A stretch of 22,963 nt of DNA from a virus: positions 1-22,963 of the IMG/VR virus record IMGVR_UViG_3300036444_000018; one strand, written 5' to 3'. Shown here piece by piece: positions 2,332-9,543 of the stretch. Both the position numbers and the translations under genes were made by a program. Below the pieces are notes generated by a model that worked only from the letters and a program-made list of their open reading frames with translations, made no database searches and was not told the origin of the DNA. Within the stretch, counting starts at the first letter, position 1, and each line of letters begins with the position of its first letter.

Positions 2332-2822
2332 TGGGTTCCCCCCATGGTTTCCCCGCGCGGCCCCGCGCCGCGCGGCAGGAAAGACGAGAGACGCCGGACA
2401 ACGACCGCCATCGCTGACTTGGCTTCTTCAGCTTCGCCCAGCGCGCGGTGTGCCTCACGCGGGCCGGAGCCCGGCTGCGAGACGGCCAGGCCGTGCGCGA
2501 TCGCCTCACCGCATTCCTTCGCGGCCGTCGCCAGATCATTGGCGAGCGCGATGCGGGAGGCGACCTGCCGGCCAAGCTCATTGTCGAGCTGCTGGGCATA
2601 GGTTTCGAGCAGGGGCGCACCGTCGCCGCCGGCGGCCACGAAGGCCGTATCGAGCGCGAGCGCCTGGGAAATCGTGGGATAGGCGCCAGCTCCCGGATGC
2701 ATCCATTTGTGCACCAGGCGCTGGCTGCGGCCTACGGTACGCGCCATGCGCGCCACGGTGAGCACCGCGGCGACGCGGGTGAGCGCGTGCTGGAAGGTAA
2801 CGGGATCGCGCCGCAGCGTCAT
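2328..2822 (-). CDS. CII-like phage regulatory protein
   Basis: A 164-aa protein starting MTLRRDPVTFQHAL. Residues 8-60 look like a DNA-binding region (AAVLTVARMARTVGRSQRLVHKWMHP), followed by a long helical part. The layout resembles the CII/CP76 regulators of P2-like and 186-like phages, where CII helps establish lysogeny, but the match is structural and I rate it moderate. I used the ATG at 2822 because GGAG precedes it by 7 bases and it overlaps the Cro-like stop as ATGA. Its stop overlaps the start of the Ogr-like gene, so all three regulators are translationally coupled. Confidence 0.6.
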   Translation of the reverse strand: MTLRRDPVTFQHALTRVAAVLTVARMARTVGRSQRLVHKWMHPGAGAYPTISQALALDTAFVAAGGDGAPLLETYAQQLDNELGRQVASRIALANDLATAAKECGEAIAHGLAVSQPGSGPREAHRALGEAEEAKSAMAVVVRRLSSFLPRGAGPRGETMGGTQ

Positions 2823-3136
2823 GCCTCCGCTCCGGAGTGCGAAGCGGCGCTCTGATCGCACGCGACGATCGGAGCGTCGGGGGCTACGACGCTGCCATGG
2901 GCAAGGGGGACAGAAGCAGCATCGTCCTGCGGGTAAAGGTCTGGACGGAGCCGATGGCGCGACACGCCGGTGAGATCTTCGGCGCGGAGCACGAGTTCGC
3001 CGGGCAGAAGCCGGTGGTGCTTCAGGAGATACGATATTCTCTGCTGCGAGGTGCCCACGCCGCGTGCAAAGGCGCCCTGCGACTTCGCGGCGGTGACTGC
3101 GTCGCGGAACGCTTGATATGCCAAAGCGGTGTCCAT
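2819..3136 (-). CDS. Cro/YdaS-like DNA-binding regulator
   Basis: A 105-aa protein with an N-terminal helix-turn-helix (AFRDAVTAAKSQGAFARGVGTSQQRISYLL, residues about 10-38). The downstream signature (TGVSRHRLRPDLYP) is typical of YdaS/Cro-type phage regulators. It is the first gene of the minus-strand early operon that ends at the integrase. It is divergent from the XRE repressor gene and shares the 81-bp gap holding a large palindrome. By analogy with cI/cro it would antagonise the repressor and favour the active state; that role is inferred from family and position. Confidence 0.78.
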   Translation of the reverse strand: MDTALAYQAFRDAVTAAKSQGAFARGVGTSQQRISYLLKHHRLLPGELVLRAEDLTGVSRHRLRPDLYPQDDAASVPLAHGSVVAPDAPIVACDQSAASHSGAEA

Positions 3137-3145
3137 ACCAGAAAA

Positions 3146-3208
3146 CTACTAGAGTATGGTAATCACTACAAGAGTTTTTGTGGCCGTCCCCTACAAAAAC
3201 TCTTGTAG
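3146..3208. promoter_or_regulatory. Divergent operator of the lysogeny switch
   Basis: Perfect 16-bp inverted arms, CTACAAGAGTTTTTGT (3166-3181) and its complement (3193-3208), surround an 11-base centre. A related half site, CTACTAGAG, lies at 3146-3154, 20 bases before CTACAAGAG at 3166. The inner part reads TTGTGG-N7-CTACAA. Because it fills the gap between two divergent regulator genes, it is best read as the shared operator, overlapping both promoters. The XRE gene start (3218) is only 9 bases away and has no Shine-Dalgarno, so its mRNA may be nearly leaderless (inference). Confidence 0.75.
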
Positions 3209-3217
3209 ATCTGACTC

Positions 3218-3745
3218 ATGGACCTTTCTGGAGCCGCAAGGTGGATGCGTGAGGAGCGGAGACGCCTAGGCTGGTCCGCAGCCGAGCTTGCGCTCCGCGC
3301 CCGATCTCAGGGAAAGAAGCAGGGTGTTGAACTGGCCCTGTCTCAACAATCGATATCGGCCTTTGAAAACGGCACCGCAAAGCGAATGCCCTCGTGGTTT
3401 CGATTCGTGGAACTCGCATTCAACGCAGCCGAAACGCCGCTCTCAGAACGTCAGCAGTGGGCGCTCGATCGCGCTGAGAACCAGCCTCAGATCATCACCA
3501 TGCGGGTAGAGCTTCCTAGTGAAGCTGCGTTGGCGCGCATGTACGAGGGTCTGCTTCGAACGTTGGACCTGTCCAAACCGGTGGACGAACTCGCGCGAAC
3601 TCTCGCTCGGCTGCTGCCAACCGGTCTTTCGCAGCTTCAAGATCTGATGCCCGCACCCGCGAGGGCCGAAGCGCCCGAACACGATGAAGCTCCTCGAGAT
3701 CGCGCCAATACTGATCCCGAGCCGCCGCGAGCACCGCGCACATAA
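3218..3745 (+). CDS. XRE-family repressor, candidate lysogeny repressor
   Basis: A 175-aa protein with an N-terminal XRE helix-turn-helix. The scaffold helix is MREERRRLGWSAAELALRA, and the recognition helix is in ALSQQSISAFENGTAKRMPSW (residues about 9-65). The C-terminal part has no S24/LexA-type peptidase residues and ends in a disordered Pro/Glu/Arg-rich tail, so RecA-stimulated self-cleavage is not expected. It is the only plus-strand gene of the element, divergent from the Cro-like gene across the palindromic operator; this is the standard position for a lysogeny repressor. A LexA-type box lies 80 bases after its stop and may link induction to SOS by another route. Confidence 0.82.
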   Translation: MDLSGAARWMREERRRLGWSAAELALRARSQGKKQGVELALSQQSISAFENGTAKRMPSWFRFVELAFNAAETPLSERQQWALDRAENQPQIITMRVELPSEAALARMYEGLLRTLDLSKPVDELARTLARLLPTGLSQLQDLMPAPARAEAPEHDEAPRDRANTDPEPPRAPRT

Positions 3746-3826
3746 TTTCGCATCGCGGGCACGCCAGTTCGCAGCCTGGGGTAAGCCGATATACCGGTTC
3801 GCTCACTCTTTCGCTGGTTCCGAGTC

Positions 3827-3841
3827 GTTCCTGATATGTTC
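3827..3841 (+). promoter_or_regulatory. LexA (SOS) box, GTTC-N7-GTTC
   Basis: GTTCCTGATATGTTC is an exact match to the alphaproteobacterial LexA operator GTTC-N7-GTTC. A further GTTC at 3817-3820 precedes it with six-base spacing. A plausible sigma-70 element (TTCGCT, 16 bases, TGATAT) overlaps it on the plus strand. It lies just after the repressor gene. It could drive a short plus-strand transcript toward 4115, or a minus-strand transcript antisense to the repressor. Confidence 0.6.
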
Positions 3842-3864
3842 TTATCGCGGACGAAATCCAACAT

Positions 3865-3924
3865 GTGAAGGTGGGCTCGGCGGTAGTGCAGGGCGGCGGC
3901 TTTGCGCGCAAGTCCGGTCACTAA
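3865..3924 (+). CDS. Possible SOS-controlled 19-aa peptide
   Basis: A GTG-initiated frame of 19 codons, rich in Gly and Val and ending RKSGH, begins 24 bases after the LexA box. No strong Shine-Dalgarno is visible; GGACG lies 15 bases upstream. I do not recognise it. The only support is its position directly behind an exact SOS box with no other gene to regulate on that strand. It may be chance. Confidence 0.22.
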   Translation: MKVGSAVVQGGGFARKSGH

Positions 3925-4000
3925 CCCCGGATTGCGATGATTCCGAAACCTGCCATTCTTTTATGGCGCTGAAGGCTTCAGTCGGAACGGTCGGCATTGC

Positions 4001-4050
4001 GCCGGAAGCGGGCTTCGCTGGCGCCGTCGACCGTCCGCTAAGCGCCCCAC
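4001..4050 (+). repeat. Degenerate intergenic repeat copy
   Basis: Contains GTCCGCTAAGCGCCCCAC (4033-4050), which differs from the block GTCCGCTAACGCCCCAC by one inserted base, with GGAAGCGG upstream in place of GAAAGCGG. It lies just beyond the 3' end of the restriction operon. Confidence 0.45.
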
Positions 4051-4115
4051 ACGCTAGCGATCGTCGGATTCGGGTAGACCAGACCATCTTCCCAGATAAC
4101 TGTCGCAGCTAATGT

Positions 4116-4862
4116 CTAGGAGATTGTTGCGCTGCCCGCGATCGTCATAGTCGGCGGCGAGGCGTCAAGCCACAGATGCCAGAGTGCTATGGTCCCAGGA
4201 TCGTTGGCCGGTGATTGCGTGTGCGTGTAAGTGAATGATCGGCCATGGTCGGATTGCGCCGCGTCACAGCCATCTATGGAATGGGCGGAAAGCGCGCCTT
4301 GCAAGGCGTAGCTAGCTGCATGCCCGGCCTGCGCGAGATAGGGCTGAAGGCGGCTCGAGATATTCGTCCCATCCCGCACATAAGCGATCAGGAACGCCTC
4401 GCGGCTGCCCCAGCCATATTGTCCGTCGAGAAAGCGGCTTAGGCCTTGGCTGCAATAGAGATGCTCACCACGGGTCGCGTCTATGATCTTGGCTTCGGCG
4501 ATCAGCGGAAAGCGGATGGCTCGCGCCGACAGATGGATCGACAAGTCCGGCCGCTTTTCCAGGTGAGCGCCATTGTAATTCACGCTCTCGGCTCCGCGAA
4601 CTACGCTGCTGACGAGTTGGCGCCAAATCTGGTCCTCCTCGATCATGCGGTTAAGCCGCGCTACCAGAAGAGCGGTGACTTCGGCCTCGTCGCCGGTCGC
4701 GACCGTGCTGGCCTGACTCGCGCCGATGTCCTGAAACGCCTGAACTATGCCCTCGGCAACGAGCTGCAGATAAACCTCATCAATGGCCGGCAGAGGCAAG
4801 GCAAGTCCGCGCGTCAGTTCTGCGATCTGGTCAGGGCGAGGGGAAGACGCCGAGGAACTCAT
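4116..4862 (-). CDS. PD-(D/E)XK restriction endonuclease, partner of the methyltransferase
   Basis: A 248-aa protein with a PD-(D/E)XK nuclease core: PD at residues 105-106 (EKRPDLSIHL) and EAK at 123-125 (PLIAEAKIID), the usual metal-binding and catalytic residues, in an alpha/beta setting. The N-terminal 90 residues are helical. Its ATG overlaps the methyltransferase stop by 4 bases, so the two are translationally coupled. The second position in a restriction-modification operon is usual for a nuclease whose methyltransferase must act first. Cleavage specificity cannot be read from sequence. The annotated role rests on the motif plus the partner gene. Confidence 0.72.
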   Translation of the reverse strand: MSSSASSPRPDQIAELTRGLALPLPAIDEVYLQLVAEGIVQAFQDIGASQASTVATGDEAEVTALLVARLNRMIEEDQIWRQLVSSVVRGAESVNYNGAHLEKRPDLSIHLSARAIRFPLIAEAKIIDATRGEHLYCSQGLSRFLDGQYGWGSREAFLIAYVRDGTNISSRLQPYLAQAGHAASYALQGALSAHSIDGCDAAQSDHGRSFTYTHTQSPANDPGTIALWHLWLDASPPTMTIAGSATIS

Positions 4863-7800
4863 CCGCGACGGCGCCCCTTGAGGAAGTCGAGCCGCGACCA
4901 GATCAGGTGCTGGGCCAGCAGCCTCGCTTGCGTTGCGCTCCAGTAACGATTCTGGGCGAGGCGGCCGACGAGCAAAACGCCACCCTCATCCTCGACTACG
5001 ATCTCGGTGGCTGCTGAGGCGTCCGCGACCATGAGCAGTGCTTCCCAATCCTTCTCGACGGCCGTCGCTGATGCGCTCCCGCCGATTCGCAGGGCGAAGC
5101 CTATCCAAGGTGAGGTTGAGTGATTTTCGATCGTGCAAACGCTGAGCGACGTGCCGAAGCGCTCCGTCCAAGGCGACAGCTCGCTTTGGAGGAGTGCACA
5201 GAAGTCTTTGGCGGCTTCCGGCTTGGGACGGGCTTGCGCAGCCGCCTTGTTCTCGGCGAACGGCAGATTGTACCTGAGGGTATCTGTGATGATCTCTAAA
5301 TCGCTAACGCCAAGGCCGTAGAGGTTCGCGACCCAACGATCCACGTCCTCCCAAGCCGACGGAGACCGGTAAACCGCGTCGAAGAGCTGCAGGATTTCAG
5401 CGCGGCCGTGCGATCCGAGTTGGCGGAAGTCGGGGATCGGTATGCGGTCGAACGCGGCCTTCTCAATGACCTCACGCTCGAAGCCGAATTCTCCGCTGGT
5501 AACGAGCGCAAGCCACAGTGCGAACTTGCTGCCAAACACAAGGGTGAGGTAGCGCACGAGTATGTCCGAATGCGCGAAACCCGCGGGACAGTAGCCGTAG
5601 AAGGTCTCGTTGTAGACGACCGGTTCAACGGCGATGCCGACGCGAATTCTATCCCGGGAAGCTGGCGGCGACTTATGGACGATCGCGATCGGTCCCTCAA
5701 ACAAACTCGCATCGCGCAGTCGGTGAACGCGGTCTTGCTGGAACGTTTTCAGCTTCTTCCCGTCGATCACCAGGCGGTCCAGTGATTCGACCGTCACGTC
5801 AGGCAAGCCGCGAAGATGTCCCGCATCCTTACCGGGCGGGAGCGCTCCAATCTCGCGGGAACCGCTGCTCGTGCGAAGCTGCTGATAGCCCTGCCCCGAA
5901 CCAGCCATTCGTCCGCGGCCCGACACGCCGACTGCCTCGCGCCAGAACGCTTCGACGGTAGGAAAACCCTTGCCGCGGATACGCTCGACCAAACCCAGGT
6001 CCGCCCTAGTCCCGCGAAAGAGGATCTTCAGGATATCTGGCGTCTCGATCATCTGCTGGGTCGCGATGATCTCGGCCGCGTGTGCGTCGATGCGCATTGC
6101 GCCGGCGGCGTTGAGCCCTGTTTCCAGACGGGGGCTGATCAGCCGGAAGCCTGCACCAGGTTCTGGCACACGGTTGGTTGCGATCAGCAGGCAGAAGGGC
6201 GCCATGATTTCTGGCCAGACCTTGGTCTGGCGCAGTTCGGAGCCATTGATGACGGAGGTGATGTCGAGCGCCTGGAACAGCATTCGGCGCGCATCGGCCA
6301 TGCCGTCGCCCTGCTGGAAGAGCAAGCGTGCGTGGAGCGCAAAGGCGATCTGGCCGCCCGGCTTGGCCCATTCCATTGCACGCCAGACAAAAGGAATGTC
6401 GAGTCCCTCGTTGGGCAGAGGCGGCGCGAGCTTTGTGCCCGAGCGCTCGCTCGCGATGTCCGAGACGGTCTTCAGAACCAGCGACCAGTCCGGTAGCTTC
6501 GTGCCAGTCGACCAAGGCGGGTTGCCGACGACCAAGTCGTACCGACCGCGATGCTCATCACCCACCAGTGGCCCGAGGCTGCCCAGACTGGAGCCACGTT
6601 CGTCATTCTCGATTGAGACGAGGTGGAGCACCTTGCCGCGAAGATCGTCGAAACGCAGCTTGTCGATGGGCTGGGGCTCAGGGTCGAGTTCGATCGAGAC
6701 TAGATAGAGCGCGAGAGCGGCGAAGCGCAGCGCCTCCTCGTTGATGTCGAAGCCGGTGATCTGCTTGTAGAGAATCTCGCGGAGCACGGCCGTGTCTGGC
6801 CGCTTGCCATCTGCACGCCAGCGCGCCGCCACGAGCTCGCGAAAGGCCGTCAGAAGGAACACACCGGCGCCCGCCGCCGGATCGAGGATGCGCGCCGATC
6901 CATGCGATCCGTCGCGTTCGAGCGCCCGGAACGATGCGCGAACGAGCAGATCGGCGATTGGCCGCGGTGTATAGAAGCCGCCTTCCTTGCGCTGTTTTTC
7001 CGGGGCATGCCGGCGCATGTAGAGCTCATAGGCCTGGCTCAGCACGCCGACGGGGATGTGCGCGAAGTCGAGCCGATCCCAGCGCTCGGTCCAGGCGAGG
7101 AAAAGTTGGCCCCCGGGCGCGCGCATCATGATGTTGCCGAGAACGAAATAGGCGTCCGTCGAGAGGGTTTCGAAGATATCCCTCGACAGCGGCAGCAGGT
7201 CGCCGTTGAAAGTCCTGTCGAGCCAGGCACTCGCCTCTCGCGCATTTTCCGCGTTGGCGAACAGTGCGGCAGCGGTCTCCGGAGCGGCCATGTTCTGTGG
7301 CAGAAGATCACGGTCTCCGAGGAAGCGCGCAAACAGCGCCCGTCCAACCAGTGAGATCGCGTCGCCATGCCGGACGTCCATTCCGATCAACTGGTTGATC
7401 GCGTCCGTTAGGAGGTTGAGCACTACATTGGAGATCCAGCCCTGTCGGGTGCGCGCCGCGCGCGGACGTCGGTTGGCCAAATGCGGGAACAGGTCTCGGT
7501 TCGGCGCTTCCGGCTTACCAAGGGGCACTCGAGCCTGCGACGGGGTTTTGCGATCAAGGGCGATTGCGTAGATGTCGAGCCGGCCCGCCGCGACGATGCC
7601 AAGATACGGCGCATCCCCGCGCATCGCGAGCAGGCGGCGCAATCTATGGATATCCGCTGCGCCCGCGATCCGATCAGCGGCGACGAGGAAGATCAGCGGG
7701 GCGTCCTGCCATTCGTACACAGCGCCCACCATATCGAGAACCGAGCCGCCCTCTCGCCGCGCGTTGGCAAGGGTCGCGTAGGGCAGCAGTTCCGGAGCGT

Positions 7801-7870
7801 CGCTATCGAGCACATGGAGCGCGTGCCGATCGGCGCCGAAGGGTTCAAGGCAAGCGAGCCAGTCAGTCAT
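4859..7870 (-). CDS. N6-adenine DNA methyltransferase (Eco57I/type IIG-like)
   Basis: Large S-adenosylmethionine-dependent DNA adenine methylase. Counting from an upstream TTG at 7891, motif X-like GGFYTPRPI is near residue 304, motif I (ILDPAAGAGVFLL) near 335 and the catalytic NPPW near 457 (YDLVVGNPPW). The C-terminal half (from about 640) has the character of a target-recognition domain, with TSGEFGFEREVIEKAAFDRIPIP typical of such enzymes. The N-terminal 300 residues carry no visible PD-(D/E)XK site, so cleavage is probably left to the separate 248-aa nuclease. I chose ATG 7870 (1003 aa) over TTG 7891. It follows the controller gene after 30 bases. A BREX PglX-like role is possible but no other BREX gene is present. 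Confidence 0.88.
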   Translation of the reverse strand: MTDWLACLEPFGADRHALHVLDSDAPELLPYATLANARREGGSVLDMVGAVYEWQDAPLIFLVAADRIAGAADIHRLRRLLAMRGDAPYLGIVAAGRLDIYAIALDRKTPSQARVPLGKPEAPNRDLFPHLANRRPRAARTRQGWISNVVLNLLTDAINQLIGMDVRHGDAISLVGRALFARFLGDRDLLPQNMAAPETAAALFANAENAREASAWLDRTFNGDLLPLSRDIFETLSTDAYFVLGNIMMRAPGGQLFLAWTERWDRLDFAHIPVGVLSQAYELYMRRHAPEKQRKEGGFYTPRPIADLLVRASFRALERDGSHGSARILDPAAGAGVFLLTAFRELVAARWRADGKRPDTAVLREILYKQITGFDINEEALRFAALALYLVSIELDPEPQPIDKLRFDDLRGKVLHLVSIENDERGSSLGSLGPLVGDEHRGRYDLVVGNPPWSTGTKLPDWSLVLKTVSDIASERSGTKLAPPLPNEGLDIPFVWRAMEWAKPGGQIAFALHARLLFQQGDGMADARRMLFQALDITSVINGSELRQTKVWPEIMAPFCLLIATNRVPEPGAGFRLISPRLETGLNAAGAMRIDAHAAEIIATQQMIETPDILKILFRGTRADLGLVERIRGKGFPTVEAFWREAVGVSGRGRMAGSGQGYQQLRTSSGSREIGALPPGKDAGHLRGLPDVTVESLDRLVIDGKKLKTFQQDRVHRLRDASLFEGPIAIVHKSPPASRDRIRVGIAVEPVVYNETFYGYCPAGFAHSDILVRYLTLVFGSKFALWLALVTSGEFGFEREVIEKAAFDRIPIPDFRQLGSHGRAEILQLFDAVYRSPSAWEDVDRWVANLYGLGVSDLEIITDTLRYNLPFAENKAAAQARPKPEAAKDFCALLQSELSPWTERFGTSLSVCTIENHSTSPWIGFALRIGGSASATAVEKDWEALLMVADASAATEIVVEDEGGVLLVGRLAQNRYWSATQARLLAQHLIWSRLDFLKGRRRG

Positions 7871-7900
7871 GGCCCAATCCCACAGCTGCAATCCACCGGC

Positions 7901-8188
7901 TCACGACAGAAGGTCCAAGCTGGCTTGGCGGTCTCCGCCAAACTGGCCGGGGCGGGTCGCACCGCGCGGCTTTCGGGTCGGCCCAACCTTGGCGATCGCG
8001 CTGCGATAATCGAGACCCTGCGCAGCCATTTCGGCCACCAGCACCGCAACGAGCGCGACATGCTGCGGGACGTCACCCCGGCCGGCGTAGTTAGTGATGG
8101 AGTTGGGGTTCATGCCGATGAGGCCTGCAAAGCCTCGGACGCTGAAGCCCGCGCGCTCAAGCTCGGCGACGAATTCAGCGTAAGGCAC
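7901..8188 (-). CDS. XRE-like controller of the restriction operon
   Basis: A 95-aa protein with a central helix-turn-helix (FSVRGFAGLIGMNPNSITNYAGRG, residues about 15-38) and a basic, Gly-rich tail. It starts at GTG 8188, preceded by AGAAGG. It is the first gene of the operon with the methyltransferase and nuclease, as for controller (C) proteins of type II systems that delay nuclease expression. Three evenly spaced operator-like sites sit immediately upstream, suggesting autoregulation. Family membership is a motif judgement; the regulatory role is inferred from order and operators. Confidence 0.7.
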   Translation of the reverse strand: MPYAEFVAELERAGFSVRGFAGLIGMNPNSITNYAGRGDVPQHVALVAVLVAEMAAQGLDYRSAIAKVGPTRKPRGATRPGQFGGDRQASLDLLS

Positions 8189-8538: not shown

Positions 8539-9543
8539 CTAGCCGGTTAACTCAAGCTGAAGCCGGCTCGTAAATCCGCCGCTTCCATCGAGCTGGTGCT
8601 CCACTTCCGCAAGCAACCAGTCGGTGCCGTCGATCTCCGCCTTGAAATCTTGGGCGCGCGTCTTCTGCTCGGGATATAGATCGAGCCGCGCCAGGGCGAG
8701 GTTCAGGCTCAGCTTGCGTGGTGCGCGTGCGCCGCGCTTCGCTTCAGCTTCCGCCGCCCGCCGCGCAGCCTGTTCCGAAGGGTAGACCCGCGCGAGCTTG
8801 CGCTCCGGGCCATCGCCAGCACCGGCAGTGACGGTCTTCTTCTGAGCCGACCTGCGATCGTGCCAGGCGGCAGTGACACGGCCCACCGCCTCTCGCTTCT
8901 CGATCCGGAAGGTGTGGCGGTCGCCGTCGCGGCGGCGAATGACGGCGGAGGGCAGGGGCTGGCCGCTGGCCGTGACGCCGGCGCCGATCGGCGCGAAGAT
9001 CAGCGCGCCTGCCTTGATCGTGGCAACGGCGTCGTGTTCGCGCCCCAGGCGGCGCAGGAAGGCGATGTCGCTCTCCCGCGACTGGGATAGGGCCTTGATG
9101 GCGATCGACGCCAGAGCGGCCGCGCAGCGCGCGGTGAGACCGTGGCGCCCGGCGACCTGACGCACCACGTCTCCCAGAGTGGTATTGTGCCAGCTCTGTT
9201 CGCGGCGCGTGGCGACGGCGCTGGTGAAATCGGCGGAGCGGGCGCGGATGGTGAGGGTATCGGGTGGGCCGGAATGCTCCAGCTCGTCGACAATGAAGCG
9301 GCCCTTGTCGACCAGGCCGACGGCAACATCGCTTCCGGCCTTCCACCCGAGCTGCAGGGCGAGAACAGCGCCCTCTGGCGGCATGGCAAGGCGGCAGTCG
9401 CTGTCGTCGAGCACGATATCGAGCTGATCGGCCTCACCCCCGCGCTTTTCGACGAGCCGAAGCGAGACGAGCCGGGGGAGGAGCCGGGGCGAAATATCCT
9501 CACCGCCCAGCATCACGCGGAAATCGGGGACGGCTACGCTCAT
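8539..9543 (-). CDS. D: Tail protein gpD (baseplate hub, late control D family)
   Basis: A 334-aa homologue of P2 gpD, the hub protein that joins tail tube to baseplate spike and is related to T4 gp27. The sequence has the family form: N-terminal beta domain (VMLGGEDISPRLLPRLVSLRLVEKRGGEADQLDIVLDD), a middle segment (TLGDVVRQVAGRHGL, LSQSRESDIAFLRRLGREHDAVATIKAGALIFAP), and a C-terminal domain ending in LQLELTG. It is the last gene of the tail transcript, overlapping gpU by ATGA, as in P2. No ogr follows, unlike P2; the Ogr-like gene sits in the early operon instead. Confidence 0.93.
   Translation of the reverse strand: MSVAVPDFRVMLGGEDISPRLLPRLVSLRLVEKRGGEADQLDIVLDDSDCRLAMPPEGAVLALQLGWKAGSDVAVGLVDKGRFIVDELEHSGPPDTLTIRARSADFTSAVATRREQSWHNTTLGDVVRQVAGRHGLTARCAAALASIAIKALSQSRESDIAFLRRLGREHDAVATIKAGALIFAPIGAGVTASGQPLPSAVIRRRDGDRHTFRIEKREAVGRVTAAWHDRRSAQKKTVTAGAGDGPERKLARVYPSEQAARRAAEAEAKRGARAPRKLSLNLALARLDLYPEQKTRAQDFKAEIDGTDWLLAEVEHQLDGSGGFTSRLQLELTG

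Follow-up and report, generated by a model that had tools for sequence, protein, structure and literature searches.

A repressor outside the self-cleaving class

The window, meaning the whole stretch of DNA analysed here, is the 22,963-nucleotide IMG/VR virus record IMGVR_UViG_3300036444_000018. To judge by its relatives and gene content, it is a sphingomonad phage of P2 type, with an integrase at 1-1074, an Ogr-like activator at 2017-2331 and a baseplate hub GPD at 8539-9543. An XRE-type repressor of 175 amino acids is encoded on the plus strand at 3218-3745. On the minus strand, 2819-3136 encodes a Cro/YdaS-like regulator, the first gene of the early operon, and between the two lies the inverted repeat CTACAAAAACTCTTGTAG (3191-3208), which is likely to be the operator, similar repeats being present in L001 and L002. 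Domain searches with the repressor returned only marginal HTH_3/HTH_31 matches and no Peptidase_S24 domain. Its structure model consists of the HTH region and two helices (102-115 and 122-143), and beyond residue 143 the tail is disordered; the conserved C-terminal domain, LPSEAALARMYEGLL...ELARTLARLLP, corresponds to 3488-3652 on the plus strand. Search and model thus bear out an earlier reading of the sequence alone, according to which this repressor is unable to cleave itself, and they place it outside the S24 (LexA/CI-type) self-cleaving class. DNA damage must therefore act on the prophage through another route.

A conserved LexA box in front of a minus-strand gene

The motif GTTCCTGATATGTTC is found exactly at 3827-3841 on the plus strand, 82 bp past the repressor stop at 3745, and reads GAACATATCAGGAAC on the minus strand. 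GTTC-N7-GTTC is the LexA site described for alphaproteobacteria (PMC3323433). Chance alone would give 0.47 exact matches per window, which puts a single match such as that at 3827-3841 within the range of chance, and the site was therefore judged by comparison among relatives; another match at 6929-6943, within a methyltransferase gene, was treated as chance. Two repressor relatives in viral contigs carry the box at the equivalent place with different spacers, and the DNA conserved between them and the window revealed an open reading frame on the minus strand. It starts with GTG at 3806, 20 bp beyond the box, stops at 3516 and encodes a protein of 96 amino acids, the product of what we call the minus gene. 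Relatives of this protein occur in IMG/VR and in S. desiccabilis, Sphingomonas sp. CBMAI 2297 (L013) and Sphingomonas sp. Leaf22. Within the same GTDB family, 20 of 398 genomes carry one, and further ones occur in the order.

The main homologue set comprises 37 non-redundant sequences from sphingomonad phages and prophages. An exact GAAC-N7-GAAC lies 24-39 bp upstream of the start codon in 35 of them, with 28 different spacer sequences among the 35, whereas none of 2423 control windows from the records of these homologues contains the box. Most of the additional homologues checked beyond the 37 have it as well. The box of L038 has one mismatch, and in a divergent branch of the minus gene (L046, L052, L060, L098) the box is absent and the C-terminus altered; control therefore differs in that branch. 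Three Sphingomonas genomes with relatives of the element have an exact GTTC-N7-GTTC at the start of lexA, and two of the three have one upstream of recA as well. Conservation thus indicates that the site at 3827-3841 is a functional LexA box of the host type, as the sequence-only reading had proposed, and that the minus gene, with a promoter box conserved in its orthologues, probably belongs to the alphaproteobacterial SOS regulon. LexA would be expected to bind here and a promoter to be active. That the gene and its operator are real we regard as nearly certain. The same reading had let the box drive a 19-residue peptide (3865-3924) or a small RNA on the plus strand, and here comparison speaks against it: neither is conserved. 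The short frame does exist; in the nearest relative its start codon is lost, and in most relatives the DNA past the box is unrelated.

On this far side of the box, the interval up to tail gene D (window 4116-8188) is a cargo hotspot. The window carries a Type IIG-like restriction-methyltransferase there, together with a 248-residue protein (4116-4862), and L001, L002 and L013 carry different genes. The 248-residue protein has no match in Pfam, PHROG or PADLOC, and used as a query for related loci in IMG/VR it recovered no relative.

Several further features surround the box. A GANTC site adjoins it at 3822-3826, and among the 35 boxed homologues 24 have such a site 0-12 nt past the box, compared with a background of 3-6% of equal windows and with shuffles that gave a mean of 2.7 and a maximum of 10. 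The contexts of these sites are close to YGAKTCG, the motif described for GcrA/CcrM-activated promoters (PMC7987155). The SOS promoter may thus also be gated by DNA methylation and GcrA. About 27-30 bp upstream of the box (near -29), at a nearly fixed distance and with any HTH module, stands an element TTTCCTAC(A), carried by L007, L008, L009, L015-L017, L019, L039, L043, L054, L094-L096 and L099; it is possibly a -35 element or the site of a host factor. The L040-L049 clade has the palindrome TAGGAAAAATCCTA in its place. TTTCCTACA recurs upstream of the box as well and shows no genome-wide over-representation in four of five hosts. Consensus scans of 2700-4300 showed neither a sigma-70 promoter nor a terminator-like site, either result being weak evidence.

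The 96-residue protein defines a new family

Four cysteines of the minus protein (C12, C16, C19 and C23) form a C-x3-C-x2-C-x3-C motif, encoded at 3738-3773 on the minus strand; a possible metal site, it is kept in all 37 homologues. The structure model (mean pLDDT 71) is confident in a helical hairpin only, formed by helices 19-46 and 53-73; the tail, residues 81-96, is of low confidence and the cysteine region is not resolved in the model. A structure search with the hairpin gave no significant PDB match. Searches of Pfam, PHROG, NCBIfam and PADLOC found no significant family, the best weak matches being to unrelated ones, and tblastn detected the protein neither in INPHARED phages nor in PLSDB plasmids. 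A diverged copy of the gene is located in MT836451. By these comparisons the protein represents a new, previously unnamed family. The sequence-only reading had seen no known antirepressor in this DNA; the minus gene, 96 codons long and conserved, is now a candidate for one. Given that it has no characterised homologue, an excisionase-like factor or another SOS effector is also possible.

Selection acts on both strands of the overlap

Antisense overlapping genes are known but contested, and annotation usually discounts them. The minus gene covers, in antisense, the final 230 nt of the repressor gene (3516-3745), repressor codon positions 1, 2 and 3 standing opposite minus positions 1, 3 and 2. 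Nearly all minus genes sit opposite a repressor, and the antisense phase is constant. An open frame on the minus strand is rejected as standalone proof of a gene, since that frame survives 7-65% of trials per locus in which the repressor is recoded synonymously; codon-position patterns were therefore used instead, as mean pairwise differences at minus positions 1, 2 and 3 among 12 window-like sequences. In minus codons 2-20, which have no gene opposite, the differences are 0.14, 0.12 and 0.52, and dN/dS is approximately 0.08 in the window-like clade and 0.12 and 0.26 in two other clades. Codons 23-76 give 0.13, 0.14 and 0.36. In codons 77-96 the pattern is reversed (0.22, 0.41 and 0.13) and the repressor dominates. 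Sliding windows resolve three zones: the minus frame is constrained at 3657-3806, both frames at 3582-3656 and the repressor frame at 3516-3581, so that within the overlap the variable position shifts from the minus wobble to the repressor wobble. The predicted disordered tail of each protein lies opposite a helix of its partner.

These patterns indicate that the minus protein is under purifying selection outside the overlap, with dN/dS about 0.1, and that the two genes are an antisense overlapping protein-coding pair, with coding-type selection in both frames. They also bear on the simplest explanation, that the box is a chance LexA-like motif and the minus frame a by-product of repressor codons. 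The expectation of 0.47 matches per window and the ease with which the frame stays open under recoding would suit that explanation. Chance, however, leaves the box in 35 of 37 loci against 0 of 2423 controls without a cause, and likewise the selection in codons 2-20, where no repressor gene lies opposite. We consider it highly improbable and, in our judgement, already refuted by conservation.

The minus gene travels with the repressor C-terminal domain

Repressors opposite the minus gene share a single C-terminal domain, LPSEAALARMFEGLL...ELARxLAxRLP, but their N-terminal modules are of several unrelated types. The minus genes of L007, L008 and L009 are about 85-95% identical (DNA bins) and the HTH halves of their repressors are unrelated. 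In pairs with different HTH modules, most maximum-likelihood change points lie between +292 and +333, counted from the minus start, and so just beyond the minus stop at +291; none is inside the minus gene. It appears from these comparisons that the DNA-binding domain has repeatedly been exchanged and that no exchange reached into the minus gene, so that the box and this gene travel together with the repressor C-terminal domain. In L007, L008 and L009, HTH, operators and cro are replaced as one immunity cassette flanked by conserved DNA; the cassette occupies roughly +300 to +900 relative to the minus start. Differences between the window and L003 are confined to the repressor HTH and the operator region.

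The C-terminal domain alone, used as a query, matches in 24 of 398 genomes, and the minus gene accompanies these matches except in four small (~2-Mb, Zymomonas-like) genomes and at two weak matches. The copy in L082, missed by the minus-protein profile, was found through this search. Repressors of Zymomonas plasmids (L058, L059, L061) have the same C-terminal domain without minus gene or box, and could show an ancestral or a derived state; some of these plasmids hold several copies of such a repressor. As evidence for binding, the coupling of minus gene and C-terminal domain is weakened by the fact that shared DNA partly forces it.

A proposed route to induction

We propose that in the lysogen LexA would repress the minus gene while cro and the early operon are silenced by the non-cleavable repressor. 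Upon DNA damage LexA would be cleaved and the minus gene expressed from 3806 to 3516. Its product, with its four-cysteine N-terminus and helical hairpin, would most likely bind the two-helix C-terminal domain of the repressor, so that the DNA-binding domain is released from the operators. The minus transcript, running antisense through the repressor gene, would lower the synthesis of new repressor and aid the switch, and could read on into cro and the early genes, which lie downstream on the same strand. Thus the box would be the LexA operator of an antisense gene whose product relieves the repressor after damage, with antisense transcription assisting, and we think this account is probably right. 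The antirepressor function of the protein is, as far as sequence comparison can tell, likely. It is suggested by the tie between a small protein under LexA control and the repressor C-terminal domain; that the protein binds the repressor and lifts operator repression is suggested by coupling and position only. The logic is that of Tum, which the sequence-only reading had invoked: a small phage gene, LexA-boxed in 35 of 37 homologues, faces a repressor that has no S24 domain. Likeness to Tum, AntC and the Gifsy proteins makes an antirepressor the best reading, and the minus gene is probably how the sleeping prophage wakes on damage to its host.

The transcript itself might be the inducer, antisense RNA and transcriptional interference silencing the repressor and read-through driving cro and the early operon, with the protein in a side role. 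The gene does lie opposite the repressor and shares its strand with cro and the early operon; the scan of 2700-4300 showed nothing like a terminator, and OOP of lambda is a precedent for antisense RNA against a phage regulator. Yet the minus protein is under strong purifying selection, outside the overlap too, and retains its four cysteines in 37 of 37 homologues; moreover, repressor protein made before induction would persist without an antirepressor, and the role of OOP after SOS is minor, if any (PMC2327240). We consider this alternative unlikely. The antisense transcript that the sequence-only reading had drawn from the box through the repressor into the early operon is thus kept as a second contribution to induction, which the position of the gene and the scan for terminators would allow, and given up as the whole mechanism.

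Another alternative is an SOS effector that acts elsewhere and whose position opposite the repressor is historical; it might, for example, serve in excision or replication, inhibit the host cell cycle or resemble a toxin. Constant pairing with the repressor C-terminal domain despite exchange of the HTH half argues against it, and it leaves unmet the need of a non-cleavable repressor for an SOS route. It is compatible with the lack of a homologue of known function, with the fact that other SOS-linked phage genes do such jobs and with the GANTC site beside the box, a hint of cell-cycle linkage. Such an effector seems to us improbable.

The antirepressor account has a wider form, in which the repressor domain bound by the LexA-controlled antirepressor is the one whose coding sequence harbours, in antisense, the gene for that antirepressor. 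If so, recombination could not separate the target from its inhibitor, and immunity would change freely by swaps of the HTH half. A single transcript would make the antirepressor, silence the repressor gene and open the early operon. Since the C-terminal domain is common to them, relatives that differ in immunity should be inducible by one another's protein, and the GANTC site would add a cell-cycle (CcrM/GcrA) gate. Taken jointly, these propositions are tentative, somewhat nearer to doubtful than to likely.

Relation to known systems

The pair, a small phage gene under a LexA box and a non-cleaved repressor, probably falls in the class of LexA-controlled prophage antirepressors. Database family searches, as distinct from pairwise comparison, gave no recognisable homology to the Tum, GfoA and AntC families, and in the literature, as far as it was covered, we found no description of an SOS-controlled gene lying antisense in the repressor that its product antagonises. 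Small LexA-controlled antirepressors of non-cleaved repressors are themselves established, in the Gifsy phages, in 186 (Tum) and in N15 (AntC) (PMC3121763).

Tum of the P2-like coliphage 186 is likewise made under LexA control in a P2-type phage, and it binds and inactivates a non-cleaved repressor, as we infer for the protein described here. The tum gene is, we presume, separate from its repressor gene, while the minus gene lies antisense over the repressor 3' end. Tum differs also in having 146 amino acids and a DinI-like second half (PMC3121763), in place of 96 residues with four cysteines and a helical hairpin. GfoA, GftA and FsoA of the Gifsy/Fels phages of Salmonella and AntC of N15 are again small and LexA-controlled and relieve repression by non-cleaved repressors, the Gifsy complex being consistent with A2B2 (PMC3121763). 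In those phages, however, immunity region and antirepressor locus form modules that lie apart from each other (PMC3121763), whereas here they are fused in one double-coding stretch that includes the repressor C-terminal domain. This layout suggests why the overlap persists: exchange of immunity specificity leaves the inhibitor joined to its target. For sphingomonad P2-like prophages with non-cleavable repressors, it offers a sequence-conserved, testable answer to how they respond to SOS.

LexA control is paired with antisense transcription in symE/SymR too, where the antisense RNA SymR keeps an SOS-induced toxin in check (PMC1891008). OOP of lambda, an antisense RNA to the phage regulator gene cII, codes for no protein, and its role after SOS induction was at most minor (PMC2327240). 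Unlike both, the antisense transcript proposed here carries a conserved protein gene. Finally, laoB, ano and asa of E. coli O157:H7 are protein genes embedded antisense in other protein genes. Whereas laoB is reported to be evolutionarily young and limited to Escherichia/Shigella (PMC5810103), the present pair extends across diverse sphingomonad prophages at about 30-95% identity with selection in both frames, and thus appears, on comparative grounds, to be a strong example from prokaryotic viruses of two long protein genes that overlap in antisense.
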